The notes under the pieces are model-generated. The model had not been told where the DNA came from and made no database searches. It saw only the letters and a program-made list of their open reading frames with translations. From NCBI GenBank assembly GCA_900258555.1, contig LT984854.1:118850-161568 (forward strand): a stretch of DNA of 42,719 nucleotides. The letters run 5' to 3'. Of the stretch, positions 246-19,819 are shown piece after piece (positions within the stretch are counted from its first letter, which is position 1; each line of letters begins with the position of its first letter). Made by a program: the position numbers and the translations under genes. Source of the stretch: an uncultured Desulfobacterium sp. (lineage in GTDB: Bacteria > Desulfobacterota > DSM-4660 > Desulfatiglandales > Desulfatiglandaceae).

Positions 246-277
246 AGCAACTGGCTACAAAGGCCAATAGCCTTTAC

Positions 278-409: not shown

Positions 410-420
410 TTTTTATGGTA

Positions 421-451
421 TATGCTCCTTATTCACAGAATAAGGAGCATA
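421..451 (+). promoter_or_regulatory. Perfect 14-bp inverted repeat before the recombinase RBS
   Basis: TATGCTCCTTATTC at 421-434 is the exact reverse complement of GAATAAGGAGCATA at 438-451, with a 3-base loop. The right arm runs straight into the recombinase ribosome binding site (AAAGGAGGG, 451-459). As RNA it would form a very stable hairpin beside that site; as DNA it is a good operator for a dimeric repressor. Which of the two it is cannot be told from sequence. Confidence 0.6.
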
Positions 452-462
452 AAGGAGGGATT

Positions 463-2247
463 ATGACAACATGCGGAATATATTACAGGGTTAGCAGTGA
501 AAATCAGAAGGAGCAGAAAACCATACAAAGCCAGCAGTATGAGCTACCCCTTTATGCTGCAAAACAGGGCTGGGACATTGTTGATACATATACCGATGAA
601 GGCATATCAGGCAGCTTTATCAAAGGAAGGACTGAATTCCAAAGGTGCTTACAAGACATGAAAGCAAAGAAATTTGACATCTTACTTGGCATGGACCTTG
701 ACAGGCTTACCCGAACTGACTCTTGGACAGAGCGGGGGGAGATCTTGGGGGCTATACAGGAATCAGGGGTCAAGCTGGCCAGCCCCGCAGATGGCTTGTT
801 GGACATAAGTCAGTTTAGCGGGAGCATTATGACAATCCTCAAGATGTTGATGAGTGCTGATGAAAAAGCCAAGATTGCTTCACGATTGAAACGTGGCAGA
901 AAGCAAAAAACCAGGGATGGTAATTATGCACAAGCAAAAGTTCCTTTTGGATTGAAAAGGATCACCGACAGGGATGTAAAACCCATAACACACAAGATCG
1001 TTATTGACGAAGGCCAGGCCAAAACAATCCGCATGATTTATGATCTTATTATCAATGACGGAAAATCGCTGGGGTTTGTGGCTGATTATCTTAATCAACT
1101 GGGCATTAAGCCCCCCAGGGGTAAAGCGGGGCAAATGTGGAATTCAGCCACGCTTAGTTCCATGCTTAGGATCAATGAATCAAGTTGGACAGGCGCACTT
1201 ATCAGCAACAGATATAATTTCAAGCAGGTGGGTGACAGAAAGTTCAAATTCCTTGGAGAAAATGAAGAGGCAGAGTGGATCAGGACTAAAGTTCCGGCTA
1301 TTTTCACAAAAGAAGAATATTTTGCTTTAAAGGCCAGGTTGTCACAAAACAGAAATGAGAGCAGACTGCAAAATGTTCCCGAGACGTTTTTACTGCGACA
1401 GATGCTAAAATGCGGTATATGTGGAAGGCCTTTAACTTGTAAACAGGTGGCCCCCAAAGGTACTAAATTTAGAAACAAATATTATGTTTGCTCAGGGCGT
1501 CTGCTGGAAGAGAAATTTATCAAAATAACCGAGAAAAAATGCAATGGCCCATATGTAAAAGCGGAACTTCTGGATTCCTATGTTGAGGGGGATTTTCTGA
1601 AAAAACTATTCATGTTCCCTGAAACGACTTTAAAGGCCTGGACTCAGGAAGATGTCAAGGATGGGGTGGCAAAAAATTTAGAAATCAAGCTAGAATCCAA
1701 AGAGGATGAAATCAACAAGGTCAAACAAAAGCTAACCAATCTTATGGATGAGTCAATTGGGGGATTGTTTGATCTCAATATGGTTAAGGCCAAGAAAGCG
1801 GAACTGGACAAGACCCTGAAAATCCTCAATGATGAAAGAGACACCTTGCAAAAAGAATTAAGTCGTATCGCCACAATTGAACGGAATCAAAAGACTTTGG
1901 AAGAGGTTACTTTGGATCTCAACAAACTGGGCAATAAATTAAGCAGTAAGGTGGCCAAGCTCGATATCACGGAGAAAAGGAAACTCTTATCATTTTTCAT
2001 CAAAAACGGACATGTCGAAATTAATCCCTGTCATCCTGATGACATTCACTATGAAAAAGATGCTAATGGAAGGAAAATCAAGGTGGATTGGAATTATAGT
2101 TTCAAAGGAGTGATTGACTTGTCTATCTTACTGAAGGTATTGAAAGAATTTGATAAAACCGGAAAGATACCTGACCCTTTATCCTTTTATTTGCGAGATA
2201 AAGATAATAAAGAATATTGGAATCAAGAAACACACTACCGCTCATAG
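463..2247 (+). CDS. Large serine recombinase (resolvase/invertase family)
   Basis: Site-specific recombinase of about 594 residues, the size expected for large serine integrases of phages and integrative elements. The N-terminal resolvase domain has the nucleophile motif YYRVSS (Ser11), GISG (47-50) and LDRLTR (79-84). A recombinase domain follows at about 160-260, then a zinc ribbon (CGICGRP near 317, Cys near 342 and 360) and a charged coiled coil at about 400-510. I chose ATG 463 because AAAGGAGGG sits just before it; an upstream in-frame ATG at 415 has no RBS and would translate through the palindrome. The last codons overlap the 3' end of the convergent antitoxin gene, which suggests that the attachment site lies there. 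The family catalyses integration or excision by a covalent 5'-phosphoserine intermediate. No excisionase gene is visible. Confidence 0.95.
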   Translation: MTTCGIYYRVSSENQKEQKTIQSQQYELPLYAAKQGWDIVDTYTDEGISGSFIKGRTEFQRCLQDMKAKKFDILLGMDLDRLTRTDSWTERGEILGAIQESGVKLASPADGLLDISQFSGSIMTILKMLMSADEKAKIASRLKRGRKQKTRDGNYAQAKVPFGLKRITDRDVKPITHKIVIDEGQAKTIRMIYDLIINDGKSLGFVADYLNQLGIKPPRGKAGQMWNSATLSSMLRINESSWTGALISNRYNFKQVGDRKFKFLGENEEAEWIRTKVPAIFTKEEYFALKARLSQNRNESRLQNVPETFLLRQMLKCGICGRPLTCKQVAPKGTKFRNKYYVCSGRLLEEKFIKITEKKCNGPYVKAELLDSYVEGDFLKKLFMFPETTLKAWTQEDVKDGVAKNLEIKLESKEDEINKVKQKLTNLMDESIGGLFDLNMVKAKKAELDKTLKILNDERDTLQKELSRIATIERNQKTLEEVTLDLNKLGNKLSSKVAKLDITEKRKLLSFFIKNGHVEINPCHPDDIHYEKDANGRKIKVDWNYSFKGVIDLSILLKVLKEFDKTGKIPDPLSFYLRDKDNKEYWNQETHYRS

Positions 2248-2471
2248 AGATCCTCCCGGACCCAGTCTCTTTCTCCCATATCGCGACTCAATTTCTGAAA
2301 AGTGGCCTCAAGCCCTTTAAGGGCACGCGCCTTTTGGTCTGCATCCCTTTCCGCAACCGATATGAGATATTCTCTCACCATCTGGGTCAATGTCGTATTT
2401 TTGTCAATGGCGATCTTCCGTACTTTTCGAATGACCTCTTCCTCCACGCTTAAAGTTATATTTGCCACCAT
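2235..2471 (-). CDS. Ribbon-helix-helix antitoxin (DUF6364/VapB-like), orphan
   Basis: A 78-residue protein that begins with a beta strand and helix pattern typical of RHH antitoxins (MVANITLSVEEEVIRKVRKI), followed by a polar C-terminal tail ending EDLYER, as in antitoxins paired with PIN-domain toxins. The RBS AAGGAGG lies very close to ATG 2471, so the GTG one codon on is an alternative start. A toxin gene would normally follow immediately downstream, but that position is occupied by the converging recombinase, whose 3' end overlaps this gene by 13 bp. No PIN gene is visible. It probably binds its own promoter (see 2505-2542). Family assignment is by pattern. Confidence 0.75.
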   Translation of the reverse strand: MVANITLSVEEEVIRKVRKIAIDKNTTLTQMVREYLISVAERDADQKARALKGLEATFQKLSRDMGERDWVREDLYER

Positions 2472-2504
2472 ATCCTCCTTGCGTATGGGTGAACCGTATT
2501 AAGT

Positions 2505-2542
2505 TTAACCCGTATTATGGTTAACGTCGTAGTGTTTGTCAA
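2505..2542 (-). promoter_or_regulatory. Sigma-70-type promoter with operator-like repeat for the antitoxin
   Basis: On the minus strand, TTGACA (2542-2537), a 17-base spacer and CATAAT (2519-2514) form a near-consensus promoter about 40 bases before the antitoxin start. The -10 box lies between TTAACC (2505-2510) and GGTTAA (2519-2524), an inverted repeat with 8-bp spacing that would suit an RHH autorepressor. Confidence 0.6.
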
Positions 2543-2570
2543 ACTGATTTGAGAAAAGAGTGTCGAGACC

Positions 2571-2752
2571 TTATTCGTTTTCGGCTTTTTGGATCATTAA
2601 TTGAATTACATGAAGGAAACGACGAGCCGCATCAATTGCGAAGCAGCAAAGTCGAAGTAGCCATCAGACAACAATTTTTCTGCTGCTTTAATAGCTTTGT
2701 CCGCCCTTTCAAGATTGGCTTGAATCTCCGAAGTGTAGTTTTCATGGCTCAT
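2571..2752 (-). pseudogene. HEPN-domain toxin remnant (internal deletion)
   Basis: The start codon overlaps the MNT stop (ATGA), the usual layout of MNT/HEPN operons. The first 38 residues (MSHENYTSEIQANLERADKA onward to FDFAAS) match the start of a HEPN protein, where an Arg-rich catalytic helix should follow. Instead the frame runs out after 48 codons at 2606. A second frame continues to 2571 and reads like a HEPN C-terminal helix (DAARRFLHVIQLMIQ). The middle of the domain, including the RX4-6H region, is missing. The simplest reading is an internal deletion plus frameshift that killed the toxin. Confidence 0.7.
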
Positions 2753-3063
2753 GCGGCTATCCCTTCACGCTTGGCTGTTCGATAGAGGTGGATTTCTCCG
2801 GATTCGAACTCGTCTTCCGCAACTGGTTTTGCTGAAATAAGGTGTTCTGATACAAGTTGAACCGGATAAAGAAGCTCAATAATTTTTCGCAATTCCACAA
2901 AATAATTGAATGGTTTTGATAAAATAACAAGCAGGTCCATATCACTTGATTCTACCTCCTGACCTCGCGCCATAGAACCATATAGAAGCAGTCCATGAAA
3001 TTGAGAACCATAGTGATCTTTTAGTATCTTCTTGCAGTCTTCAAGTATTGGTTTTATGTCCAT
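2749..3063 (-). CDS. MNT-type minimal nucleotidyltransferase (MntA-like antitoxin)
   Basis: A 104-residue protein with the pol-beta-like nucleotidyltransferase signature GSMARG near residue 30 and the metal-binding SDMDLLV near 40. In MNT/HEPN systems this protein modifies and neutralises the HEPN ribonuclease by adding AMP. The RBS GGAGGTGG sits 7 bases before ATG 3063. It overlaps the HEPN remnant by 4 bp, so the pair was an operon, but only the antitoxin half is intact. It should therefore be inert or cross-acting. Confidence 0.85.
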   Translation of the reverse strand: MDIKPILEDCKKILKDHYGSQFHGLLLYGSMARGQEVESSDMDLLVILSKPFNYFVELRKIIELLYPVQLVSEHLISAKPVAEDEFESGEIHLYRTAKREGIAA

Positions 3064-3221
3064 TATATTCCACCTCCAAAATCATTGACCCAACACCGGG
3101 GACAAGCGGCCAGCAGCACGCGCCAGAGACTGTGAAAACTGGGGGGCCCTAAGTACTCAAACATCCAAATGATGCAAATATGTTGTTTAACAATGGTCCC
3201 TCACTCATACACTTTTGCGGT

Positions 3222-3240
3222 AGATAACTACCAGTTATCT
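3222..3240. repeat. 8-bp hairpin downstream of the pentapeptide gene
   Basis: AGATAACT, a 3-base loop, then AGTTATCT. It lies about 30 bases after the stop of the minus-strand pentapeptide-repeat gene and could serve as its 3' hairpin, but no T run follows. The remainder of 3064-3268 shows no gene. Confidence 0.4.
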
Positions 3241-3268
3241 ATAATTAATCCAAACTTGGCACAAATAT

Positions 3269-4465
3269 CTACAGCCCCATCGAACGCTTAATCACCTCTG
3301 TTGCGAGTGCTATTCCAATATTTTTTGAAACATCTAACGCCCATATGCCAGCCTTTTTTAAATGCTCTAACACTTTTGTGCCTTTGCCTTCTTTCGCTGC
3401 TATTTCGGCAGATGTTATTTCGGCGACCGCAATAAAGTTGTCTGGAGTTTGAGCCTCTTTCTGAGCTTTAGTTCTTAATTGAGATAGCTCTTTGGCCAAT
3501 TGATTAAGGTCAATATTATGGCCGACTTCCTTCCAGAGTTGGTTAAACTCTATATCGTGAGCGTGTGCGCCAGGACCTACTGAAGCTGTTTGACCGTAAA
3601 TATTATAAGTATCTCCCATTGGTAATCTCCCTATAATATCTTGATAGCAATCTTTTAACGTGTCGTATTGGGCAGTTATTAATGCAACCCTGTTTTCATA
3701 TTCGGATTTAATAAGAGATAATGCCTCATCAGCGATCTCCTTATGAAGCACTGTAAACACAGCCCTTGGTGATCCCCGTGAATGAAAACTATCTAATTTT
3801 AAATCAAATTCAGGATTTCGCTCATTAATGGACTGTACAATTCGATCCATTAAAATAGTGTCAAGAGGTGTAATGCCATTTTCAAATATGTATTCTAATG
3901 TTGGGATATTCTTATATAGTAGTTCAAATTCACCTGGCCTGAAGTTTCTTGATTTCGGAGTCCTAATTTCATGATTTATATCGAAATAAATATAATCACA
4001 TTTTATGTCATCTATTATCCAATCTTCGCGAGCAGAACCATATAAACATGCTCCTGTAAGATCCGCTCCTGTAAGATTTGTGTTTATAAATCTCGCTAAG
4101 ATTAGATTTGTTCCTCTCAAAATTGCACCTCTAAGATCTGCCATATTTAATATTGCAGAAGTAAGGGTAGCATTTGTGAGGTTTACTTTTCTCAAATCTG
4201 CTGATATAAGCAGGGCAGAATGTAGAATCGCTTCGCTTAGATTCGCTTCTCTGCAATCACTATTTCTGAGATTCACACTACCTAGACTTGTTCCTTGCAG
4301 ATCCACCCCTCCGAAATTCACCCCCATCAGATTTCTCTTATAAAGAGGGTAATAATCGTAAGCAAGGTCACTGAGATCAGGGACTATATTAGGAAACGTT
4401 TCTCTCCACCAATTCCATTTATCAACTCCGTGCAATAATATTGAAAGTTGGCCTTTATTAGCCAT
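3269..4465 (-). CDS. Pentapeptide-repeat protein with an extra C-terminal domain
   Basis: 398 residues. The N-terminus LLHGVDKWNWWRE is typical of bacterial pentapeptide-repeat proteins. Residues about 44-147 carry roughly twenty A(D/N)Lxx repeats (ANLSEAILH, ADLRGAILR, TNLTGADLTGA), which fold into a right-handed beta helix. The rest is unusual: about residues 150-275 look helical, and around 285-300 there is a Gly-rich stretch (GDTYNIYGQTASVGPGAHAH) followed by a helical, Lys/Ala-rich tail. I do not recognise the C-terminal part. There is no signal peptide. Lying beside toxin-antitoxin genes and a recombinase, it could be an effector or immunity protein, but that rests on context alone. Confidence 0.8.
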   Translation of the reverse strand: MANKGQLSILLHGVDKWNWWRETFPNIVPDLSDLAYDYYPLYKRNLMGVNFGGVDLQGTSLGSVNLRNSDCREANLSEAILHSALLISADLRKVNLTNATLTSAILNMADLRGAILRGTNLILARFINTNLTGADLTGACLYGSAREDWIIDDIKCDYIYFDINHEIRTPKSRNFRPGEFELLYKNIPTLEYIFENGITPLDTILMDRIVQSINERNPEFDLKLDSFHSRGSPRAVFTVLHKEIADEALSLIKSEYENRVALITAQYDTLKDCYQDIIGRLPMGDTYNIYGQTASVGPGAHAHDIEFNQLWKEVGHNIDLNQLAKELSQLRTKAQKEAQTPDNFIAVAEITSAEIAAKEGKGTKVLEHLKKAGIWALDVSKNIGIALATEVIKRSMGL

Positions 4466-5129
4466 AGAGTTCGCACCTAGGAAAATTAAAAGTTACTTGG
4501 CAAAGCCCTTCTACCAGTCCAGACAACTTTCGGTTATTACTACCATATAACACATTGAATATCAAATAGATAAAGCTTCCATTTCTTAATCCTCATTTTG
4601 GAAAGTGATTCTCACGCATCTTTCCTGTCTTCAAGTGTTGAGATATATAGATCACAGGTACAGTTGATCCTGTGAAAAGAGACCGCTCTTTTTAGGTTGA
4701 TATTCCTTTCGGGCAGCCTTTGAAAATTTTCATTAAATATGATATTTTCAAAAAATGTTGAAGGTGGTGATTTATATGAAAAAGGTATTGGCAGTGGAAG
4801 TTAAAAGAAATGGCCAGCCCAAAACAACGTGGGAGGCCATTAACAGCCTTCTTCGCTGGGTATCCCTTAACGCCGGTGCAATAGGATTTTCATGGCCCCC
4901 TACATTTCATCGCGAACGGCGGAAATCTGCCGCCAGGAGGTAGTCGGATATTGCGATTTCGTCAGGATGGGAAGGGAAAATCCCTTCGCATACGAGTGGT
5001 GCCTGTCTTTAATATGTAGGTGCGACCATGTCTATAGTAGACACAACCTTTATTTAATATCGATCGAAAAGTCAAATCCACTGATCAATTACTGCCATCA
5101 ATCACACATAGCAAATAAGGAGGCACAAT
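4466..5129. other. Gene-poor stretch with hairpins
   Basis: No convincing gene in about 660 bases. An ATG at 4776 with a GGTGG-like RBS opens a 55-codon frame to 4943, but its composition is not protein-like. Hairpins present are GGCGG/CCGCC near 4920-4935 and GAAGGGA/TCCCTTC at 4971-4987. The RBS AAGGAGG at 5117-5123 belongs to the next gene. Confidence 0.5.
4652..4694. terminator. Tandem hairpins ending in a T run
   Basis: TCACAGG (4652-4658) pairs with CCTGTGA (4669-4675). It is followed by an AAAAGAG/CTCTTTT stem running into Ts. It resembles a terminator, but no gene on the plus strand reads into it now. Confidence 0.3.
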
Positions 5130-5591
5130 ATGGCACTTTATCTGGTTCAGCATGGAAAGAGCCTGCCCAAAGATGTTGATCCTGACCAGGGACTGTCGAA
5201 AGAAGGCATTGCAGAGGTTGAAAGAATTGCCCAAGTCGCTAAGGGATATCACATTCATGTCAGGCAGATCCTGCACAGCACAAAGGAGCGGGCGCGCCAG
5301 ACCTCAGCCATTTTTCAGGGTGCGCTTATCCCTGAGGAGCCCATGCAGGTCATGGCGGGTCTTCAGCCGTTGGATGATGTTAAGGCTGTTGCCGGCCAGA
5401 TCACCGGAGAAAGAGATCTGATGATCGTCGGGCATCTACCTTTTATGGAGCGGTTGACCTCATATTTGATCATCGGATACGTCGAAAAGAGGATATTTAA
5501 ATTTCAGAACGGCGGCATTGTCTGTCTGGACAGGGACCCGGAAACCGGTGATTGGTTTATAAAATGGTCACTGATGCCCAACATCAAATAA
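5130..5591 (+). CDS. sixA: SixA-like phosphohistidine phosphatase
   Basis: 153-residue histidine-phosphatase-superfamily protein. The N-terminal LYLVQHGKS carries the catalytic His in the QHG form seen in SixA rather than the usual RHG. DPDQGLSKEG and the second conserved His in VGHLPFM (near residue 108) complete the active site. SixA removes phosphate from histidine phosphotransfer domains or PTS proteins. The RBS AAGGAGG at 5117-5123 fixes the start. It stands alone upstream of a pump relic. A link to nearby orphan response regulators is possible but is inference. Confidence 0.85.
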   Translation: MALYLVQHGKSLPKDVDPDQGLSKEGIAEVERIAQVAKGYHIHVRQILHSTKERARQTSAIFQGALIPEEPMQVMAGLQPLDDVKAVAGQITGERDLMIVGHLPFMERLTSYLIIGYVEKRIFKFQNGGIVCLDRDPETGDWFIKWSLMPNIK

Positions 5592-5636
5592 AGAGATCAC
5601 CGCCAAGCGGATGAGCATGAAGCGGGACAACAGTGA

Positions 5637-5891
5637 CCTAAGGGCCTCGATGATCTAAAAGATGCCATAGTCCACGGCGCAGTCACAAGGATAAGGCCAG
5701 AGATGATGACGGTCATGGCCGCTGCAATGGGGCTTATGCCGATCATGTGGTCCATGGGCACTGGTGCTGACGTGATGAAACGCATTGCAGCCCCTATGGT
5801 GGGGGGGCTTTTTACATCGTTCATTATGGAGCTTTTGGTATATCCCGCCATTTATCTGTTGTGGAAAAGGAGGGAAGCATTTAGGATGTAA
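5637..5891 (+). pseudogene. C-terminal relic of a CusA/CzcA-type metal RND pump
   Basis: About 84 codons read like the last transmembrane portion of a heavy-metal RND transporter: DAIVHGAVTRIRPEMM, then a membrane helix, MGTGADVMKRIAAPMVGG, and a final helix with YPAIYLLWK. The full protein has over 1,000 residues; nothing of the rest is present. An in-frame stop lies just before 5637 and no start with an RBS is present, although an internal ATG occurs at 5703. Clear remnant of a deleted gene. Confidence 0.85.
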
Positions 5892-5944
5892 TGAACCGCA
5901 GAATATCGTTGAACATCTTACAGCTTATCCAAGGATAGGTTATT

Positions 5945-7096
5945 ATGACACAAAACCCCGTCAAGTTGGCTGATGAAGTAGTAATAGATAGAGATGATCT
6001 TCAACAGATTCTGGATGTCTTGGAATCCGATGGATATCAGACCATCGGCCCTGTAATCCGCGAGGGGGTCATGGTTTATGGAGAACTTAAGACCGTCTTC
6101 GATCTTCCTGTCGGGTGGACTGATGAGCAGGGGCCTGGGTCATACCGTCTGAAAAAGTCAGACACCCCCACTCTGTTTGGTTATGTAGTAGGGGCGCAGT
6201 CATGGAAGAAGTATCTCTATCCTTCAGTCTCAAGGCTTTGGCGTTCAGAACGCGAAGGCAACGGATTCAGTGTTATAGAGGAAAAAGATCAATTTCCCGC
6301 ATATGCCTTCTTCGGCGCACGTTCATGTGAAATCAGCGCCATTAGTATACAGGACAGGGTGTTTAATAATGACAAATATTCCGACTATAACTACAACGAG
6401 ATTCGCAGAAAGTCATTTATCGTAGCAGTAAACTGCACAAAACCTGCAGGCACATGCTTTTGCGCTTCAATGGATACCGGCCCCAAGGCCTTTGCAGGCT
6501 TTGACATCGCACTGACCGAACTGTTGACTAACAAAAGGCACTTCTTTATTGCAGAGGCTGGGAGTGATCGTGGGGCCTCAGTGCTTAGCAGGGTCACGTT
6601 CAGACCGGTAACTAAGGATGACAAGGCGCTTGCGCTGGGTGTTCATCAGGCGGCATTGCGACAGATGGTCCGAAGACTCAACACCTCTAATCTTGCCGCC
6701 ATATTTTCTGATCACTTTGATCATCCCCAATGGGAAAAGGTCTCGGGCCGTTGCCTGACGTGCGGCAACTGCACCATGGTCTGCCCGACCTGTTTCTGTC
6801 ATACCATAGAGGATAAGACCGCCCTGGACGGCCTTTATGCAGAGCGCTGGCGGAAATGGGACTCCTGCTTCACAAAGGACTTTTCCTATATCCACGGCGG
6901 AAGCATAAGGGCCTCGGAAAAGTCCCGTTACAGACAGTGGCTTACCCATAAGCTGGTGACATGGGTGGAGCAGTTCGGCACCCTCGGCTGTGTCGGGTGC
7001 GGACGATGTATCACCTGGTGCCCGGTTGGTATTGATATTACTGAAGAGGCAAGTGTCATAATGCAGGCACCTGATGGAGTTTCTCCCTCAATATGA
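5945..7096 (+). CDS. hydB: Group 3b [NiFe] hydrogenase (sulfhydrogenase) beta subunit, Fe-S
   Basis: 383-residue cytosolic iron-sulfur protein, related to anaerobic sulfite reductase subunit A. Near the C-terminus are two cysteine clusters: CLTCGNCTMVCPTCFC at about residue 271 and CVGCGRCITWCPVGID at about 349, fitting two [4Fe-4S] centres that pass electrons between the small subunit and the flavin subunit. It is the first gene of a run in the Pyrococcus order beta, gamma, delta, alpha, with a cNMP-binding gene inserted. The ATG has only a weak RBS (AAGGATAGG). There is no signal peptide, so the enzyme is intracellular. Confidence 0.88.
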   Translation: MTQNPVKLADEVVIDRDDLQQILDVLESDGYQTIGPVIREGVMVYGELKTVFDLPVGWTDEQGPGSYRLKKSDTPTLFGYVVGAQSWKKYLYPSVSRLWRSEREGNGFSVIEEKDQFPAYAFFGARSCEISAISIQDRVFNNDKYSDYNYNEIRRKSFIVAVNCTKPAGTCFCASMDTGPKAFAGFDIALTELLTNKRHFFIAEAGSDRGASVLSRVTFRPVTKDDKALALGVHQAALRQMVRRLNTSNLAAIFSDHFDHPQWEKVSGRCLTCGNCTMVCPTCFCHTIEDKTALDGLYAERWRKWDSCFTKDFSYIHGGSIRASEKSRYRQWLTHKLVTWVEQFGTLGCVGCGRCITWCPVGIDITEEASVIMQAPDGVSPSI

Positions 7097-7118
7097 GTTC
7101 AGTGCAGAGCCCATAGCC

Positions 7119-7201
7119 GGTTTTGAGTTTTAGGTGTTATGTTTTAACTGTTTAATATAGAGCAAGCATGCCCTGAAACGTAACACTTAAAACCTAAAAC
7201 C
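7119..7201. repeat. Imperfect 28-bp inverted repeat between hydB and the cNMP gene
   Basis: 7119-7146 and 7174-7201 are reverse complements with 5 mismatches by my count, separated by 27 bases. The right arm AACACTTAAAACCTAAAACC (7182-7201) recurs with two differences near 31134. It could form a long mRNA hairpin within the operon, and it belongs to a dispersed repeat family. Confidence 0.6.
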
Positions 7202-7221
7202 TGACCAAAAGGAGTAACCCC

Positions 7222-7683
7222 ATGGACAATTCAAAAAAGACCCTAGAGTTACACCCCTTCTTTGAGGGAATGGACCCTGATTTGCTCGATGTCATGGCCT
7301 GCTGTGCGTGCCATCGGGAATATCAGCCAGGCCAGTTCATTTACAGGGAAGGTGATGAGGCTGACCAGGCTCTTTTGATAATCGAGGGAAAGGTGTGTGT
7401 GGAGATATTTGCCGCCCAGCGCGGATCTCTGGTCATACAAACCCTTGGTCCTGGGGATATCCTGGGCTGGTCCTGGCTTTTTCCGCCGTTTAAGAGGCGT
7501 TTTGATGCAAGGGCGATTGAGCTTACCAGGGCCATTGCCCTGGATGGAGGCGTGTTGAGGCAAAAGGCCGATGAAGACCATCGCCTGGGGTATGAGCTGT
7601 TAAAGAGGTTTTCAAGGCTTGTTGTAGAACGCCTACAGGCGACCAGATTGCAGATTATTGACATTTACGGAAAACATATCTGA
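7222..7683 (+). CDS. Cyclic-nucleotide-binding-domain protein without DNA-binding domain
   Basis: 153 residues forming one cNMP-binding beta-barrel domain (GQFIYREGDEAD near residue 40; the phosphate-cassette region near GDILGWSWLFPP at about 80). The C-terminal helix ends at IDIYGKHI, where Crp/Fnr regulators would continue into a helix-turn-helix; none is present. The RBS AAAGGAG is clear. Its place between the beta and gamma hydrogenase genes suggests it senses a nucleotide or another ligand and acts on the enzyme complex by protein contact. The phosphate-binding Arg of true cAMP receptors is not obvious, so the ligand is unknown. Confidence 0.85.
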   Translation: MDNSKKTLELHPFFEGMDPDLLDVMACCACHREYQPGQFIYREGDEADQALLIIEGKVCVEIFAAQRGSLVIQTLGPGDILGWSWLFPPFKRRFDARAIELTRAIALDGGVLRQKADEDHRLGYELLKRFSRLVVERLQATRLQIIDIYGKHI

Positions 7684-7697
7684 GCAGGAAGATCAGC

Positions 7698-8531
7698 ATG
7701 AAAGCCCTTATAAAAGACATCATGGCGCCCGCGGTCTGTGTTATACAGAAATTCAGAAAAGAAACACAAGACACCTTTACCCTTGAGCTGTCACCACCGG
7801 AGGAAGGATTCAGCTTCTCACCCGGCCAGTTCAACATGCTTTACATGTATGGTATCGGTGAGGTGCCCATCTCCATAAGTGGAGACCCGGCGGACACCGG
7901 CAGGATTATTCATACCATACGCGCCTATGGTGCGGTGACCAGCAGGATGATGACACTTAAAAAACAGGAAATGATTGGTGTGCGCGGTCCCTTTGGGACC
8001 CACTGGCCCATAGAGGATCTTGTCGGCCGCGATATTCTGCTGGTGGCAGGAGGGATTGGTATTGCGCCCCTACGGCCCGTATTGTTCCACATCCTCAGTA
8101 ACAGGACAAGGTATGGAAAGGTGCTGCTGCTCTATGGCGAGCGGACCCCGGGGGACCTGATATTCAGGAACCAGATCGAGAGCTGGCGCGGCAGGTTCGA
8201 TCTTGAGCTTGAAGTTACAGTGGATAGCGCCCGGGAGGGGTGGCGCGGGAATGTCGGGGTGGTGACGACCCTTATGCCGCGGATCGTGCTCGACCCCTCC
8301 AACACCGCCGCCATGCTGTGCGGGCCTGAGATCATGATGCACTACACCATACAGGAGCTGACCAAGAAGGGCCTAAGAGATGATCAGATATACATATCCA
8401 TGGAGCGAAACATGAGATGCGGCATAGGCCTTTGCGGCCACTGTCAGTTGGGACCCACCTTTGTCTGCAAGGACGGGCCGGTGTTTCTATTAAGTAAGGT
8501 GAGGCATCTGTTCAGGAAGAGGGAGTTGTGA
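7698..8531 (+). CDS. hydG: Group 3b hydrogenase gamma subunit, FAD/NAD(P) reductase
   Basis: 277 residues of the ferredoxin-NADP reductase type, like the dihydroorotate dehydrogenase electron-transfer subunit. A FAD-binding barrel covers about residues 10-105. The nucleotide-binding motif [12 protein letters not shown] lies near 116. A C-terminal [2Fe-2S] site has [14 protein letters not shown] near 239 and a last Cys near 255. It links the hydrogenase to NAD(P)H. It starts 14 bases after the cNMP gene and is separated by 1 base from the small-subunit gene, so translation is probably coupled. Confidence 0.9.
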
Positions 8532-8532
8532 T

Positions 8533-9312
8533 ATGGCGACAAAAAAAAGGCCGAAACTCGCGGTATGGAAATTTGCCTCCTGTGACGGATGTCAACTCAG
8601 TCTCCTGGACTGTGAGGACGAGCTTTTGGCCGTGGCCCGGGAGATTGAAGTAGCCTACTTTCCCGAGGGATTCCGGGAGGTGATCAAAGGCCCCTATGAC
8701 ATATCTCTTGTAGAGGGCTCCATCACCACTGCCCACGATGCAGAGCGGATCCATAAGGTGAGGCGCATGTCAAAGACAGTAATCGCCATAGGCGCCTGCG
8801 CTACCTCAGGCGGCATCCAGGCCCTGAGGAACTTTAAGGACGTAAAGGAGTTTGCCAGATACGTTTACCCAAGGCCTGAATACATCTCGACCTTGAGTAA
8901 ATCCACACCCCTGTCGGACCATATCAATGTTGACTACGAACTCAGGGGCTGCCCGATCAGTAAGGTCCAGTTGATTGAGACAGTAAGCGCCTTCTTAAAT
9001 TCCAGAAAGCCCAATGTCCCGTCCCACAGCGTATGCATGGAATGCAAGCGAAAGGGCAATATCTGTGTGATGGTGGCAAAGGGCATCCCATGCCTTGGCC
9101 CTGTCACACACGCAGGATGCGACGCCCTCTGCCCCACCTATAACAGGGGCTGTTACGCCTGCTTCGGGCCTAAGGAGTCTCCCAACACCGGCTCTTTAAG
9201 CCGATGGCTTGGTGAGCGATCAGGCATGAAAGACAAGGACATCATGCGGTCTTTTCGCGGGATCAACGCATATGCAGAGCCCTTTCGCAAGGAGAGCGAG
9301 GCCCATGAATAA
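8533..9312 (+). CDS. hydD: Group 3b [NiFe] hydrogenase small (delta) subunit
   Basis: 259 residues with the proximal cluster motif [12 protein letters not shown] near residue 17, GACATSGG near 95, RGCP near 140, and a Cys-rich C-terminal region ([11 protein letters not shown], then [13 protein letters not shown] and GCYACFGP) for the remaining [4Fe-4S] centres. There is no twin-arginine signal, consistent with a cytosolic enzyme. It relays electrons from the NiFe site to the beta and gamma subunits. It overlaps the large-subunit gene by 8 bp. Confidence 0.92.
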
Positions 9313-10606
9313 GACGATAAAGCTTGATTACCTTGCCCGCGTGGAAGGCGAAGGAGGCCTGACAGTGAGGCTTAAAGGGGACGAGGTGGTAGATGCAAGG
9401 TTAAACATCTTTGAGCCCCCGAGGTTTTTTGAGGCCTTTCTCCGCGGAAGACGCTTCTCAGAGGCCCCCGATATCACCGCCCGCATCTGCGGCATCTGCC
9501 CGATTGCCTATATGATGAGCTCTATACAGGCAATGGAGACAGGTTTTGGTTATCATGTGGATGGGATGCTCCGCGAATTGCGCAGGCTGATATACTTTGG
9601 GGAGTGGATCGAAAGCCACGCACTCCACATCTACATGCTGCATGCCCCGGATTTTCTGGGCTACCAGGATGTAATCAAGCTTGCAGGGGATTTTCCCGAG
9701 ATTGTCGAGCGGGGTCTGAAACTAAAAAAACTGGGAAACGATATCATGACGCTGATCGGAGGTCGGGAGATCCACCCGATCAACATAAGGGTGGGTGGCT
9801 TTTACAGGGTTCCCACAAAAAATGAGCTTAACTCCCTAAGCGACCGTATAAAGTGGGCAAGGGAGGCAGCACTTGAGACTGTCCGATGGGTCGCTACGAT
9901 GGAGTTTCCCGACTTTGAGCAGGATTACGAGTTTGTGGCATTACGTCATCCGGAAGAATACGCTGTTATTGAAGGAGACCTCGCCTCCAACAAGGGCCTT
10001 TCCTTTCCCATAAGTGCATTTGAGGAATATATCCGGGAAGACCATGTGAAGCACTCCACATCTCTCCAGGCCTCTGTTAGGGGCAGAGGGGCCTATTGCG
10101 TGGGGCCGATGGCTCGGATCAACATAAACTTTGAAAAACTCTCCGCCCTTGCCAGGGAGGCCGCAAGCGAGGTAAAATTCGGACCGGGTTGTCTTAACCC
10201 GTTTAAGAGCATTATTGCTAGGGCGATTGAGGTTGTGCATGCCTGTGATGAGTCCCTGCGTATTATTGAAGGATATCAGATGCCTGAGATGCCATCAATT
10301 GATTTAACACCCAGGACGGCCACCTGTTACGGCTGCACAGAGGCCCCGCGCGGGATCTGTTGGCACCGTTACAGGGTGGATGAAGACGGGACGATTCTGG
10401 ATGCAAGGATTGTCCCCCCCACTTCCCAGAATCAGCGGGCTATTGAAGATGACCTCCTTCACTTTGTCAGGAAGAATATGGCACTTCCCGAGGACAGACT
10501 GGCGTGGTTGTGCGAACAGGTGGTCAGGAATTACGACCCTTGCATATCATGCTCTTGTCATTATCTTAAGTTGAAGTTTGAAAGGGACCTCGACGGGGAT
10601 ATCTAG
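9305..10606 (+). CDS. hydA: Group 3b [NiFe] hydrogenase large (alpha) subunit
   Basis: 433 residues carrying both NiFe ligand motifs: [11 protein letters not shown] (near residue 60) and DPCISCSCH (near 411). After the final His there is a 14-residue tail ([14 protein letters not shown]), the part that a maturation endopeptidase removes after nickel insertion; that protease is encoded next. I chose ATG 9305 because the family begins just before the conserved VEGEGGL and AAGGAG precedes it; an in-frame ATG at 9272 lies deep inside the small-subunit gene. It catalyses reversible H2 oxidation coupled to NAD(P), and relatives reduce sulfur. Confidence 0.92.
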
Positions 10607-10611
10607 CCCGT

Positions 10612-11118
10612 ATGGATCATGCATTTAAAACATGCGGATTCAGACCTTGCGGACCAAGAGGGGCCATAGTTTTAATCGGCGTAGGCAATGAATTCGCTGG
10701 CGACGATGGGGTGGGCCATTATATTGCCCGCAAGTTAAAAGCAAAAGACTTACCAGGCACCCAGGTTGAATTTTTAAACGGAGACCTCTCATCTCTAATT
10801 GAGGCATGGAGGGGTAAGGATAGCGCAATTATCTTTGATGCGGCAAAATCGGGCGCACCGCCGGGAAAAATTTACTGTTTTGAGGCCAGCAGTCAGTCCG
10901 TACCTGGCCGGTTATTCACCCAGTCGAGCCATAAGCTGGGTTTGGCAGAGGCGGTTGAGCTTTCGAGGCAATTGAGCCTTCTGCCGTCATACACTGTGAT
11001 TTACGGGGTCGAGGGAAAAAGTTTTAATTACGGAGTGGGGCTTTCCCCTGAGGTCAAAAATGCCGCCCTCGATGTTGTGGAGCAGGTTACGAGGTATGTC
11101 TTGGGAGGAGAACAATGA
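10612..11118 (+). CDS. Hydrogenase maturation endopeptidase (HycI/HyaD family)
   Basis: 168 residues with GVGNEFAGDDGVG near residue 23 and IIFDAAKSG near 75, the acidic residues that read the bound nickel, plus the SSHKLGL segment near 105. It cleaves the C-terminal tail of the large subunit after the DPCxxCxxH motif. The N-terminal 20 residues before the conserved core are unusual and the RBS is weak, so the start may lie slightly elsewhere. It overlaps the LuxR-type gene by 4 bp (ATGA). Confidence 0.88.
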   Translation: MDHAFKTCGFRPCGPRGAIVLIGVGNEFAGDDGVGHYIARKLKAKDLPGTQVEFLNGDLSSLIEAWRGKDSAIIFDAAKSGAPPGKIYCFEASSQSVPGRLFTQSSHKLGLAEAVELSRQLSLLPSYTVIYGVEGKSFNYGVGLSPEVKNAALDVVEQVTRYVLGGEQ

Positions 11119-11804
11119 TCAAGAAAAAGACCGTCCTGATAGTTGACGACCACCCCTTTATCAGGGAGGGGCTTAAGGCCATCATTGGTCGCATCATTGG
11201 CTCTGAAGCAATGTATGAGGTGGTTGGAGAGGCCTCAACAGGCCACGAGGCCCTGAAATTGGCCAAAGAACTTAAGCCTGATATCTGCCTGATGGACATA
11301 TCTCTGCCGGACCAAAGCGGCATTGAGCTTACCAAGGAAATCGTCCGGCTTATTCCAAAGACAAGGATATTAATCCTGAGTATGCATTCAAAGATTGAAT
11401 ATATAGCCGAGGCAATCCAGGCAGGGGCCTCAGGATATCTTGTCAAGGACTCTGCCTATGAAAAACTCTTGCAGGCACTGGATTGGGTTTCAAAGGGGGA
11501 ATATTACCTGGACACCGCCATATCCGGTCAGGTAGTGAAGCAATTAAGATCTGTCCCCAAAAAAGAAAAGGTGATCACCGACCAGGAATACAGAAACCTG
11601 ACCGAAAGGGAGCAGGAGGTGATGACCATGCTTGCCCAAGGTCTTAATATAGAGGCTATTTCCGAAAGGCTCTTCATAAGCCCCAAGACCGTGAAAAACC
11701 ACCGCGCAAGCATAATGGCAAAGCTTTCAGTACACAGCCACTATGAACTGGTCCGATACGCGGCAAAGCTTGGACTGATTGATGTAGACTTGTGGAAGAC
11801 CTAG
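11115..11804 (+). CDS. NarL/FixJ-type response regulator (receiver + LuxR HTH)
   Basis: 229 residues. The receiver domain has IVDDHPFIREG, the phospho-acceptor Asp in CLMDISLPDQSG (near 58) and YLVKDSA. The LuxR-type HTH (LTEREQEVMTMLAQGL to SPKTVKNHRASIMAKL) begins near 160. Overlap with the protease gene places it in the hydrogenase operon, so it is a candidate autoregulator of it. No histidine kinase is in the window. The stop codon TAG is the second to fourth base of an inverted-repeat element, so the native C-terminus may have been replaced by the insertion. Confidence 0.9.
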   Translation: MIKKKTVLIVDDHPFIREGLKAIIGRIIGSEAMYEVVGEASTGHEALKLAKELKPDICLMDISLPDQSGIELTKEIVRLIPKTRILILSMHSKIEYIAEAIQAGASGYLVKDSAYEKLLQALDWVSKGEYYLDTAISGQVVKQLRSVPKKEKVITDQEYRNLTEREQEVMTMLAQGLNIEAISERLFISPKTVKNHRASIMAKLSVHSHYELVRYAAKLGLIDVDLWKT

Positions 11805-14953: not shown

Positions 14954-15409
14954 ATGGTGCAAATAAAAAATATCCTTGCAGCAATAGACTTCTCCGAATA
15001 CTCAAACGAGGTGATGGGATATGCCGTCTGCCTGGCTGAATCTCTAAAGTCCCGATTGATTGTTGTCAATGTTATTAATCAGCGTGACATCACCGCAATG
15101 AGAACGATCATTCAGAGCCGGGTGGATATTAATGTGGATGAATATGTGCAGAAGGAAAGAGAAAGGCGTATCCAGGAAGTCCAAAATTTGTTACTCTCAA
15201 ACAAGGGTTCTCATCTCACGGTCAATACCGTTATCAGGATTGGCGTCCCTTTTGTTGAATTGTTAGATGCCATTAAAGAGGAAGGTATTGACTTGGTGGT
15301 AATGGGCTCAAAGGGTCGCACCAATGTGGCGGATGTACTTTTCGGCTCTACAGCGGAAAAGGTGTTCCGCCGTTCTCCGGTTCCGGTAGTCAGTATACGT
15401 CGAAGATAA
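14954..15409 (+). CDS. Universal stress protein (UspA family)
   Basis: 151 residues, one Usp domain. The N-terminal [14 protein letters not shown] and the C-terminal nucleotide-binding motif [16 protein letters not shown] (G-2x-G-9x-G-S) indicate an ATP-binding Usp. It lies 24 bases before the 1003-residue membrane protein on the same strand; a second Usp follows that gene. The RBS GGGAGG is good. Usp proteins respond to energy limitation, redox change or growth arrest. Confidence 0.92.
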
Positions 15410-15433
15410 ACCGAACACTGTTATTTTGGTTTT

Positions 15434-18400
15434 ATGCAAAGAATCCTTTTCGACAAGCGCGATTACCTCCTCTTAAATATCGTCAATGACGTTCTCAGCA
15501 GGGATAAGTCCCGTGAATACACCCGGAGGCTTGTCTATTCTTACTTACATCCCCATGGAGTAAAGGAACTGGCGGAGTCAAAGGGCCTGCGCCTTGCCTT
15601 TGCAGTCATTCACCTTTTTCAGTCCCTTGAGGCAGGAGGCGTGGATGCGCGATTGAGTGCATTGCGTTCCTTACATTCCGAGGTCCTGCATATCGGCGGG
15701 GGCTCTCTGCCCATAAATACTGCCAGAGTCCTGTTACAGATCATGAAGGAGTTGATCAGGGCTCATGGAGACACTGAAAGACAACTCCAACTCGCCCATG
15801 ACTTTAGAAGATCTGTAACCGGAAACCCCAGGATTATAAGGGCGCAACTGCGAAATTATCATCTCCTCGAAATGCCCGAAGAATGGAATCAGGTCACCTT
15901 TGACGATCACGTTCACGATGCAAACACCAAAGGCCGCAAGTCCTCATCTCATCTGATAATGGATGCCTGGATTAAGGGCATCAGGCGTTTGAGGGTCATC
16001 TACTACAACTATCTTGAGCCCAGATTCGCAGTAGAACTGCTGGAAGCGGCCCGGATTATGGGGATTGATATCCGCACTGGTATAGAGTTTTCTTCAAGAT
16101 TTCGCGGAAAATACGTTCACCTGATCTGGGTTCCCAGGGGTTTTGTAGATTCCCAGGATTTTCTGTGTTTCCTTGCCGAAGACCCTGTTGTGGAGTTTAT
16201 GGCCGAAGGCAGAAGGGTTTCGGAATATCAGACGGCCTATGTCTATAAGATATTCGATGAGTTCAACAGCAGGCATCGCCTTACAGTAAGAGAGACCCAT
16301 GGCCTTGAGATACCCCCGCTCAACATATCGGATTTCATCTCCTTTGTGGGCACAGGTCAGGCCTCCTTGCTCCACCTTGCTGAATTTCTGCACAAGAACA
16401 TGCTTCCCCTGATGAATTCTTATGTCGAGGAATTGAGAAATTTATATGCAAATGCGGCCAATGAGGAGCGACAGCGCATAGCAGATAAGGTGGCTGAGTT
16501 AAACCGACTTGATGCTGAAACCATCCTTGAGCAATACCTCCAGCCTGAGAAAAATCCTGGCATACCAGACCCCAATTTCCCCGGAGATGACAGCAACGTC
16601 CCGGCCTTGCTCAAGCTGTCTCCCAAGGGGCTGATTGATCGTCTGGTTCAACTCCATTCAGGTCAGCGCTTTACCCTGAATCTCAGCAATCTTAAGGTGG
16701 AGGATGTTATTGAACTCCTCTATGACTGCGAAGGTATAATCACCCGTCTGGAAATATTCAATCTGAAGGACCATGCCAACAAAAAGACGGATCATATCCC
16801 TGATATCAGCAGACTCCAGGAGGCACTTAACAGGAAGAACGTTATTCACCTGAAGAAGATTATCAGGGAGGTTATTTCAAAACTCGAATCATCAGGCCTT
16901 GAAGACAGCGGCGACAGGATCAAAAAGTTAGCCTATATACTCAATGACATCTCAACCTTGAGGGACATGTATTTGGGTGCACAGTTAAAGTCCCGCATAG
17001 GAAGCGATTCCACGGGCCGTTCAATCCGTTTTCATGGTATGGGGCTGGCCATAATGGATACCCTCCCACGCCGCGCTGTTAAAGAGGTCCATAATCCCGG
17101 GGCCGCTGTCCGTGAACATATCCCAATCAAGGTAGCGGCGTTCAGAAGAAAAACATCTTTTCGCCGAACCAGTCCTAATAAATCTGTGGCACGATTATAT
17201 CGCCTGGCCGAAAAGATACCTGCATTACAACTGGTTAGCCAAAAACAGAGCGCCGACTGGCTGATAGGTCAGTCTGAATATGTAAAAGGATGCGGCAATG
17301 TCGTCACCCTGGGAGGGATTCAGAAACATATGGATAATGGACTTTCCATTGATCCGCCCCGGGCTGAAAAAAGGAAGGCCGGATTATCATTAAGCTATCT
17401 TAATACCGGTACAAAAAACGGACTTAAGGTCCTCATCGGCTTCATCCCCGCCTTTTTTACATTCGCTTTGACAAAAGACTGGTGGCTGTTGGCCTATTTT
17501 GGGGCATTTATCTGGTTCGGGATTACCGGATTGAGGAATATACTGCAATCTGTTATGGGCGGTGGCGGTATCAAGCGAGCCCCGATGTTAAGGTGGAACG
17601 ATTATGTAAGCTGGGAACGCTTGACGGACTCGCTCTTATTTACAGGTTTTTCTGTCCCTTTACTGGACTATGTGACAAAGACCGTGGTGCTGGACAGGTG
17701 TTTTAATATCACAACCGCTACCAATCCCATTGCCCTTTATGCCTTTATGGCCCTTGTCAACGGGTTGTATATCTCAAGCCACAACGCCTTCAGGGGACTG
17801 CCCAAGGGGGCGATCATCGGCAATCTCTTCAGAAGTATCCTTTCCATACCGGTTGCAGTGCTGCTCAATGCGGCAATCGGCGGAATTTTGGGCTCCAGCG
17901 GTGTGACGCACGTAAGCGATGTCTTACAGAAATGGGCCGCGGTAATCTCAAAGGCATCATCGGATTTTGTAGCAGGCATCATAGAAGGGACAGCCGACAG
18001 GTACCAGAACATTCGCATCAGGCTCAGGGACTATTCTGAAAAGCTTGAACAGCTCTTCGACACATACTCAAAACTGGAGATGTTTTTCCCGGAAGTGAAC
18101 ACAATGGAATTGCTCAAAAACCCGACAAAGATCACCCAGGCCACTAATGAGGAGGTGAGAGACCTTGAAAAAATCCTGATCATCCACGCCCTGGATCTCC
18201 TCTACTTCTGGATGTATCAGCCGCGAGCCAGAAGCGCCCTTCGCTCTCTGGTTCAATCCCTGTCTGATGAAGAGAGGGAAATCCTTATTGGAACCCAGTC
18301 CGTACTAGTTCAACAGAGAAAGATCAGCCTTCTTTTTGTTGATGGATTGGTGGGCAAGAACTTTTCAAAGGCCCTGTCATTTTATCTCGACCGTTCTCAG

Positions 18401-18445
18401 GAATATATGGCGGATATGGATCAATTCTCCATCCCGAAACAATAA
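15434..18445 (+). CDS. Large protein with degenerate PHP-like domain and membrane region
   Basis: 1003 residues, no signal peptide. About residues 1-150 are helical. Residues 155-240 resemble a PHP phosphoesterase domain: DDHVHD at 157-162 (His159 and His161), GIEFS at 216-220, and VHL with His229. Where PHP enzymes have the TDH motif there is YYNYLEP (190-196), so one metal ligand set is lost and activity is uncertain. Residues 330-560 are predicted helical and charged. About 660-825 contain four to six hydrophobic segments (GLKVLIGFIPAFFTFAL, PIALYAFMALVNGLY, LSIPVAVLLNAAIGGIL). The C-terminal 170 residues are helical and probably cytosolic. It is flanked by Usp genes on the same strand. 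I cannot name the family as a whole. Confidence 0.8.
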   Translation: MQRILFDKRDYLLLNIVNDVLSRDKSREYTRRLVYSYLHPHGVKELAESKGLRLAFAVIHLFQSLEAGGVDARLSALRSLHSEVLHIGGGSLPINTARVLLQIMKELIRAHGDTERQLQLAHDFRRSVTGNPRIIRAQLRNYHLLEMPEEWNQVTFDDHVHDANTKGRKSSSHLIMDAWIKGIRRLRVIYYNYLEPRFAVELLEAARIMGIDIRTGIEFSSRFRGKYVHLIWVPRGFVDSQDFLCFLAEDPVVEFMAEGRRVSEYQTAYVYKIFDEFNSRHRLTVRETHGLEIPPLNISDFISFVGTGQASLLHLAEFLHKNMLPLMNSYVEELRNLYANAANEERQRIADKVAELNRLDAETILEQYLQPEKNPGIPDPNFPGDDSNVPALLKLSPKGLIDRLVQLHSGQRFTLNLSNLKVEDVIELLYDCEGIITRLEIFNLKDHANKKTDHIPDISRLQEALNRKNVIHLKKIIREVISKLESSGLEDSGDRIKKLAYILNDISTLRDMYLGAQLKSRIGSDSTGRSIRFHGMGLAIMDTLPRRAVKEVHNPGAAVREHIPIKVAAFRRKTSFRRTSPNKSVARLYRLAEKIPALQLVSQKQSADWLIGQSEYVKGCGNVVTLGGIQKHMDNGLSIDPPRAEKRKAGLSLSYLNTGTKNGLKVLIGFIPAFFTFALTKDWWLLAYFGAFIWFGITGLRNILQSVMGGGGIKRAPMLRWNDYVSWERLTDSLLFTGFSVPLLDYVTKTVVLDRCFNITTATNPIALYAFMALVNGLYISSHNAFRGLPKGAIIGNLFRSILSIPVAVLLNAAIGGILGSSGVTHVSDVLQKWAAVISKASSDFVAGIIEGTADRYQNIRIRLRDYSEKLEQLFDTYSKLEMFFPEVNTMELLKNPTKITQATNEEVRDLEKILIIHALDLLYFWMYQPRARSALRSLVQSLSDEEREILIGTQSVLVQQRKISLLFVDGLVGKNFSKALSFYLDRSQEYMADMDQFSIPKQ

Positions 18446-18655
18446 CCACCATTGAGCCACCGATAATTTTCTTATTCCTCCGAGTCGAAATTTTTCCATA
18501 AAATGTATTGGAATATTTCAATATTTCCATGGTCAGGCCTCAGCATAATAAATTATATCCAGCCTATCACCTTAATATAACGGCATATATTGAAATAGCA
18601 GCGGTGGCATGGTTCGTGCTAGTCTTTCCTCAAGACCAGGACGGAGAATATTACG

Positions 18656-19105
18656 GTGATAGAAATAAAAAATATACTCTTTCCCTGTGATTTGAGGGAA
18701 ACCAACTCGATTATTTTGCCCTATGTCATATCCATGGCAAAAAAATACGACAGCACCATCCATCTGCTTCATGTCATTGTTGACGTTTCAAAATGGGGTG
18801 GCCTCTATATACCGCACATCCCGCTGGATCTGTATCAAAAAGAGGCAGAACAGGCCGCAGAAAAAATGATGGACAAGATCTGTACGGAAACGCTATTGGG
18901 TCGTTCCAAATTTATAAAAAAAGTTGTCTCCGGTGATCCGGCAGCGGAAATCCTGAAAACAATTCGAACCGAGAATATTGACCTGGTGGTAATGGGAACG
19001 CACGGATTAAACGGGCTGGAGCTGAGGATGGTGGGTAACGTTACCGATAAGGTCATCAAGGAATCAAAGGCCCCTGTGCTGGTCATCAATCCATTCAGGC
19101 TCTAG
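18656..19105 (+). CDS. Universal stress protein (UspA family), second copy
   Basis: 149 residues starting at GTG, with GGAG about 10 bases upstream. It has IKNILFPCDLRETN at the N-terminus and GTHGLNGLELRMVGN near the C-terminus, matching the ATP-binding motif except that the final G-S is G-N. It is only weakly similar to the Usp at 14954. 18446-18655 has no gene, just an AT-rich inverted repeat near 18508-18530. The stop codon is the TAG at the left end of the second 150-bp repeat element. Confidence 0.9.
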   Translation: MIEIKNILFPCDLRETNSIILPYVISMAKKYDSTIHLLHVIVDVSKWGGLYIPHIPLDLYQKEAEQAAEKMMDKICTETLLGRSKFIKKVVSGDPAAEILKTIRTENIDLVVMGTHGLNGLELRMVGNVTDKVIKESKAPVLVINPFRL

Positions 19106-19252: not shown

Positions 19253-19819
19253 TCAGACATTTTTTAATAAGGTGGAATTCAAATATGTCTTTGCCGCATG
19301 ACCCCGGACGTCCTCAGGCCAGGAAAGCAGCCTGAAATACTCGGAATATCTTTCACATATATGACGATATCTTTCAGCATCATCCTGAGGCACATAGTCC
19401 TTTAGCTTCAGCGTCTTGAGGCAGTCTTCCGCAAATCTTATTTCCTCATCAGTTGGGTGGTCGCACCTGGCCAATGCATCTTCAAGTTTTTTCCTCAACT
19501 TCTCAACTGCTTGGGCCTTTTTGATCTCGCGCCTGTTTTTCCTTTCTATCTCCTTTTTCTCTTCCTCATAGAGCTTGCAGAGGATATCCTGCGCAGCCTG
19601 GTAGTAGTGGTTTTCCACAAAAAAAGAGATCCCGCTAAAATTCGGATTGCATATGACCTTACACCCACAGTGGGCCTCTATGCGCTCAATGGCCTCAGCA
19701 CAATATATGTGCTCCGTGAGGTTCAGCTCCTTGTGGTGTTTGAGAAATTCTTCATTTTGCTTTAGGGAGTCTTCGTCAATCCCTTCGGTTTGGTTCATAG
19801 GGTCTTGTTTCATCTTCAC
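19253..19819 (-). CDS. Hypothetical coiled-coil protein
   Basis: 188 residues, highly charged. It contains a short domain-like segment with AHCGCKVICNPNFSGISFF near 50-70, and a long Lys/Glu-rich coiled coil (KLYEEEKKEIERKNRREIKK, about 82-118). No signal peptide or membrane segment. I do not recognise the family. There are in-frame Met codons at residues 1, 3 and 8; the RBS is weak (GAAGGTG). The coding sequence ends beside the 150-bp repeat element, so its native tail may be altered. Confidence 0.65.
   Translation of the reverse strand: MKMKQDPMNQTEGIDEDSLKQNEEFLKHHKELNLTEHIYCAEAIERIEAHCGCKVICNPNFSGISFFVENHYYQAAQDILCKLYEEEKKEIERKNRREIKKAQAVEKLRKKLEDALARCDHPTDEEIRFAEDCLKTLKLKDYVPQDDAERYRHICERYSEYFRLLSWPEDVRGHAAKTYLNSTLLKNV

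Follow-up and report, generated by a model that had tools for sequence, protein, structure and literature searches.

In an uncultured Desulfobacterium sp., a 42,719-nucleotide stretch of contig LT984854.1 (positions 118,850 to 161,568; hereafter the window, meaning the whole stretch) encodes a 1003-aa protein that combines a PHP barrel, whose putative metal site is reduced, with a membrane domain in which the polar residues are almost invariant. The gene belongs to a stand-alone family found across the window's phylum. Hundreds of deltaproteobacterial (Desulfobacterota-type) genomes encode homologues of this thousand-residue protein that are conserved along the full length, in some cases as two paralogues, and the protein has no match in Pfam, NCBIfam, or PADLOC. 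The PHP domain itself is already known; the family and its combination of domains are undescribed in the libraries searched.

Distribution and conservation of the family

Searches for the family covered genomes of relatives within the window's phylum, complemented by a scan of GTDB genome contigs. The gene is present in 14 of 46 genomes of the window's own taxonomic family and in 44 of 395 genomes of the phylum sample (27 of 246 genera). The contig scan gave at least 392 loci. The 80 best of them, those that were kept, all have at least 52% identity, and their record titles mostly name Desulfobacteraceae, Desulfobacterales, Desulfobulbaceae, Syntrophales, and other deltaproteobacterial genomes. 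The conservation figures refer to 108 aligned homologues, and the counts of nearest Usp neighbours to 131 distinct loci. The homologues align over their whole length with a mean column identity of 41%, and the most remote member (L131), at 27% identity, retains the order of motifs. Since the conservation extends end to end in hundreds of genomes, the open reading frame (ORF) is more than a chance one.

One genus (g99) often carries two paralogues of the gene. At another locus (L026), two copies that are close on the tree lie tail to tail, at 54-3389 on the plus strand and 3413-6790 on the minus strand, about 23 bp apart. No relative of the 1003-aa protein was detected among PDB sequences by phmmer or hmmsearch, and no match to the family in plasmid and phage records by tblastn; Pfam gave no PHP match either for one member set plus four divergent members.

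A divergent PHP barrel

Residues 153-615 almost certainly form a distorted (beta/alpha)7 barrel of the PHP superfamily fold, as judged from a full-length AlphaFold2 model that was built with the 108 family sequences (predicted local distance difference test, pLDDT, 84.6; predicted template modelling score, pTM, 0.83). The best Foldseek matches of this model in PDB are PHP phosphoesterases and RNase AM, with E from 7e-6 to 3e-4. In VIA-align, the top Z scores belong to 3e0f (18.2, 255 residues at 2.8 Å), 2yb1 (17.0), 9etk (16.5), and 7ug9 (16.3), followed by PHP domains of DNA polymerases with Z 12-14. The first 24 rows are all PHP proteins, and the best non-PHP row has Z 6.1. Thus, the PHP-like domain that the preliminary description had recognized is real, but its extent is different: a barrel is indeed present where it was looked for, at residues 150-240, and is far longer, because the structure match covers residues 153-615. 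Part of this length is an insertion with predicted helices at 240-247, 250-289, 298-305, 312-340, 343-357, 361-369, 391-394, and 397-407.

Profile comparison points tentatively in the same direction as the structural match. An RNase AM-type PHP profile constructed from these genomes aligned with the family by hhalign at E 0.0016 (a single comparison, probability 16%), with three motifs in register: DLHVHS with DDHVHD, TDH with YYN, and GVEL with GIEF, so that both HxH and GxE coincide. A GDPD control gave E 0.78. The initial hhalign comparison with mixed PHP subfamilies was not significant, and the RNase AM match emerged after the subfamilies were split. In a further, weak hhalign match, GSDAH of another PHP set aligns with GSDST of the family.

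Putative metal site

In canonical PHP proteins, nine positions bind three metals, in the order H, H, D/H, H, E, H, C/H, D/N, H (PMC3666897). The family keeps positions 1, 2, 5, and 8 (H159, H161, E218, and D525 in the window protein), and positions 3, 4, 6, 7, and 9 are replaced. All four retained residues occur together in 97 of 108 homologues, E218 being kept in 102 and D525 in 103. In the first strand and the loop after it, D157, H159, D162, G167, R168, and K169 are found in every homologue, H161 in 106, and K166 in 105. In the YcdX structure, one of the three metals is reportedly bound by positions 1, 2, 5, and 8, which we note only as a lead.

Among the replaced positions, position 4 is Asn (N192 in 96 homologues, next to Y191 in 104), position 9 is Thr (T527 in 101), position 7 corresponds to N416 or L417, and the loop K166-G-R-K169 contains position 3. 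Position 6 (residue 229) is variable, with Q in 54, K in 16, N in 12, and H in 4 homologues. The histidines of the TDH, HxLxY, HP, and SDxH motifs are absent in nearly all members. The motifs initially read from the window protein, DDHVHD (157-162), YYN (190-192), GIEF (216-219), and VHL (228-230), are all present, and the replacement of TDH by YYN that was noted for this one protein is a feature of the whole family. Of the metal site proposed at the same time (His159, His161, Glu218, and His229), the first three residues stand. His229 does not, and Asp525 is the likely fourth ligand in its place.

The register of the two histidines follows from the VIA-align ranges, in which model residue 152 corresponds to residue 3 of 2hnh, 153 to residue 5 of 2hpi, and 154 to residue 2 of 2yb1. 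Provided that strand 1 is ungapped, H159 is equivalent to Eco 10 and Taq 11 (Table 1 in PMC3666897). An exception is the remote member L131, in which D525 is missing, position 6 is still His, and an HP motif is retained close to position 7. This pattern fits a stepwise loss of ligands from an ordinary PHP ancestor.

Membrane domain

The multi-helix membrane region reported for the window protein is confirmed by five hydrophobic peaks within residues 662-820 and by predicted helices at 658-680, 684-710, 727-756, 765-787, and 791-821 and at the start of 827-884 (AlphaFold2). Ten polar residues (R701, N702, H783, N784, R787, R800, S843, D844, E851, and D855) are identical in 105 of 108 homologues and are kept even in the 27%-identical remote member. 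Both soluble parts of the protein are probably cytoplasmic, because of the positions of basic loops (the positive-inside rule).

Folded alone, the membrane domain gave pLDDT 84.0 and pTM 0.75. Residues 640-1003 have no clear fold match in PDB by Foldseek (best E 0.68) or VIA (the top row, at Z 6.9, is a soluble helical protein), which is not in itself evidence of a new fold. The scattered weak Pfam matches to this domain, of which the best was Pneumo_ncap (E 1e-4, 7 of 108 homologues), were judged to be due to chance. SpecificRecomb (PF10136), considered as a candidate relative, found no support: it is not among the 25 Pfam families listed for the 108 members, and hhalign gave no match to one member, L227.

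Functional interpretation

The 1003-aa protein is most likely a membrane-bound phospho-ligand protein, possibly a phosphoesterase for lipid headgroups. Our tentative proposal, to which we give a little less than an even chance, is that it is an enzyme of the phosphoesterase type, bound to the membrane, with a phosphorylated lipid, a headgroup, or a related metabolite as its substrate. In this scheme, a PHP barrel of the RNase AM/TrpH type with a helical insertion is joined to a C-terminal membrane domain of about six helices, and the barrel would face the cytoplasm, as the positive-inside loops suggest. There it would bind a phosphorylated ligand at the reduced metal site, probably with one metal held by H159, H161, E218, and D525, and K166, R168, and K169 may supply the positive charge that is given by further metals in canonical PHP enzymes. 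The membrane domain could present or pass a lipid-like phosphorylated substrate via the invariant polar set. The gene would work alone; in the window's genus, stress genes of the Usp type lie next to it, and co-expression with at least the upstream Usp gene is probable.

We favor this proposal because the four putative ligands are jointly retained in 97 of 108 homologues, to be compared with the mean column identity of 41%, and because of the PHP fold, the near-invariance of the membrane polar set, and the GDPD and PhoU_div contexts. A GDPD gene adjoins the family gene on the same strand in two independent lineages, downstream in L012, L015, and L019, which form one clade, and upstream in L131 and L186; these are the only genes in the flanks found with the GDPD profile. 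In L019, the GDPD gene is followed by two FAD-oxidoreductase genes resembling subunits of glycerol-3-phosphate dehydrogenase (GlpA/GlpB-like). In L012, an AsmA-family gene precedes the family gene, and in two distant members PhoU_div genes are located 23 and 9 bp upstream of it. These neighbours loosely point to phosphate or phospholipid metabolism and, being few, are given little weight.

Several observations weigh against the proposal. Neighbours linked to lipids occur at few loci only. Five of nine canonical ligands are absent, and comparable losses go together with inactivity in the PHP domain of E. coli Pol III (PMC3666897). In genus g99, one type of paralogue (L126, 1432-4479; L128, 1486-4467) has HVYD for HVHD and GTSS for GSDS, so that both H161 and D525 are lost, and its membrane polar set is intact. 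In a single clade of five members (L022, L029, L030, L042, and L052), Ser replaces E218. Because of these paralogues and this clade, metal chemistry may not be essential.

Another explanation also has a sizeable probability, though one below one half: the barrel may be a non-catalytic, ligand-binding or structural regulator, with the work being done by the membrane domain as a transporter, channel, or membrane enzyme. The polar set of the membrane domain is indeed stricter than the metal site (105 versus 97 of 108 homologues) and persists in paralogues whose barrel site is degenerate. The nearly complete disappearance of the TDH, HxLxY, HP, and SDxH histidines points in the same direction, and there is a precedent for a PHP domain that is inactive and serves a structural role (PMC3666897). 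However, a purely structural role does not require that H159 and D157 be invariant and that H161, E218, and D525 each be retained in at least 94% of homologues, and the membrane domain has no clear match to a known transporter fold.

A bolder and rather unlikely reading is that the C-terminal domain has a new fold, of a membrane enzyme or a transporter, in which the ten polar residues make up an invariant buried site. A PHP barrel with a single metal would read a phosphorylated ligand and thereby control or assist this domain. The protein would then represent a previously undescribed membrane phospho-ligand system across the phylum.

A membrane-anchored nuclease, with the barrel acting on RNA or oligonucleotides at the membrane, is improbable. 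RNase AM is among the best structure matches (9etk and 7ug9), and the basic residues R168 and K169 are invariant and K166 nearly so. However, the nine-ligand trinuclear site is not kept, and no neighbourhood link of the family to RNA genes was observed.

If active, the 1003-aa protein would stand out among PHP enzymes by being bound to the membrane and by its reduced metal centre; if inactive, it would show that nature has reused a PHP barrel to regulate a membrane protein. In both cases, the analysis names the residues to mutate. The unclassified membrane domain is the most interesting part of the finding.

Genomic context

The preliminary description had placed the large gene between two Usp genes on one strand, and the ORF coordinates (Table 1) and Pfam matches of both small ORFs to PF00582 (E 1.3e-27 and 1.9e-24) agree with this layout. 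The two Usp proteins are 27% identical to each other. The gap between the first Usp gene and the large gene is 25 bp, that between the large gene and the second Usp gene is 211 bp, and in a genome of the same genus (L006) the equivalent Usp gene lies 18 bp upstream of the family gene. These short upstream gaps suggest that the first Usp gene is probably co-transcribed with the large gene.

Table 1. Features of the locus and of the 1003-aa protein (positions in the window)
Feature	Position	Strand	Basis
Usp gene 1, 151 aa, with a GSKG...GS nucleotide-binding loop	14954..15409	+	ORF and Pfam
Large gene, 1003-aa membrane protein with divergent PHP barrel	15434..18445	+	ORF, homologues, AlphaFold2
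Residues 1-150, predicted N-terminal helical region	15434..15883	+	AlphaFold2 secondary structure
Residues 153-615, predicted PHP barrel of RNase AM / metal-dependent phosphoesterase type	15890..17278	+	VIA-align, Foldseek, hhalign
Residues 157-169 DDHVHDANTKGRK, first barrel strand with putative ligand positions 1 and 2 (H159, H161); K166, R168, K169 in loop of expected ligand 3	15902..15940	+	
Residues 190-192 YYN, second strand, canonical TDH lost	16001..16009	+	Conservation (n = 108)
Residues 216-219 GIEF, third strand, putative ligand position 5 (E218)	16079..16090	+	Conservation (n = 108)
His229, ligand position 6 in the window protein, not conserved	16118..16120	+	H in 4 of 108
Residues 240-400, predicted helical insertion within barrel	16151..16633	+	AlphaFold2 helices between strands
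Residues 523-528 GSDSTG, last barrel motif; D525 retained at position 8, T527 instead of His at position 9	17000..17017	+	Conservation and weak hhalign match
Residues 656-860, about six predicted transmembrane helices with polar set	17399..18013	+	Hydrophobicity, AlphaFold2, conservation (n = 108)
Residues 861-1003, predicted C-terminal helical region	18014..18442	+	AlphaFold2
Usp gene 2, 149 aa, 211 bp downstream of large gene	18656..19105	+	ORF and Pfam

That the three genes constitute a stress module with the Usp proteins as dedicated partners is very unlikely, in spite of the tight same-strand layout in the window, the upstream Usp gene in L006, and the Usp or Usp-domain proteins within 2 kb in other members, since homologues commonly occur without such neighbours: of 240 sides, only 5 have Usp as the nearest gene, and of the 95 loci covered for at least 1 kb in both directions, the window alone has Usp nearest on the two sides. 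The Usp-bearing lineages are scattered on the family tree, and Usp genes are common in the window's genome, because 15 Usp domains there exceed the cut-off. As a general system the module is largely refuted. Nor did the literature searched yield a paper that combines PHP with Usp or with transmembrane proteins in these bacteria.

The family gene nevertheless has some tendency toward stress-gene regions, without being a Usp partner as a rule. Usp within 2 kb is observed at six loci compared with three for more distant flanks (one-sided p 0.02). It lies within 2 kb in L008, L016, and L045; in L016 this holds for both sides, the downstream gene not being adjacent, and the surroundings by eye include Usp, a cNMP-binding-like protein, and a dodecin-like protein. 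Two further loci contain 657-aa Usp-domain proteins nearby, both on the minus strand (L044, 73-2046; L047, 6684-8657). The former begins with an NADH:flavin oxidoreductase domain and matches the last part of Usp in its C-terminal region, and the latter, of the same length, matches the Usp profile. The flanking Usp genes in the window thus represent a local layout, and they do not belong to a general system.

A search for conserved neighbours revealed none that is general to the family, neighbours differing by clade, and because of this the protein probably acts alone. The only large neighbour cluster (21 loci) was judged an artefact in which multidomain signalling proteins were joined through shared domains. 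Other clusters mostly follow single clades. Thus, a LysR-like regulator gene adjoins the family gene in four of the five members with Ser for E218, and in the Desulfamplus clade (L068, L074, L075, and L076) a gene for an MBL-fold hydrolase is directly upstream or overlapping.

Elsewhere in the window, positions 5945-11804 contain a [NiFe] hydrogenase-like multi-subunit cluster that comprises an Fe-S subunit (Fer4_22), a cNMP-binding protein, an NAD-binding/DHODB-type subunit, the large subunit, and a HycI protease, followed by a LuxR-type response regulator. At 415-4465, a large serine recombinase (Resolvase/Recombinase/Zn ribbon) lies beside an opposite-strand pentapeptide-repeat protein. A 188-aa protein encoded at 19253-19819 on the minus strand has only a weak match, under the cut-off, to a type ISP restriction coupler domain (E 0.0022).

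Comparison with known systems

Large size and a C-terminal multi-helix membrane part are also found in membrane proteins of the SpecificRecomb/Gcr type (PF10136), which have no Pfam or profile match to the family. GDPD (PF03009) is encoded beside the family gene in two lineages, yet it is a separate protein and has no sequence match to the barrel.

Another parallel is the variant PHP domain of the E. coli DNA polymerase III alpha subunit (2hnh, Z 13.9), where five of nine ligands are likewise replaced, partly by basic residues (PMC3666897). That domain is fused to a polymerase and keeps other positions, whereas the family keeps positions 1, 2, 5, and 8 and is combined with a membrane domain.

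The nearest relatives by structure are RNase AM/TrpH (YciV) and related PHP phosphoesterases (3e0f, 2yb1, 9etk, and 7ug9). They share with the window protein the distorted TIM-like barrel, 193-265 residues being superposed at 2.8-3.9 Å with Z 16-18, and the HxH, GxE, and GSD motifs occur in the same order. These relatives, however, are soluble, have about 280-290 aa, and retain more of the metal ligands, whereas the window protein is a 1003-aa membrane protein that has lost positions 3, 4, 6, 7, and 9.

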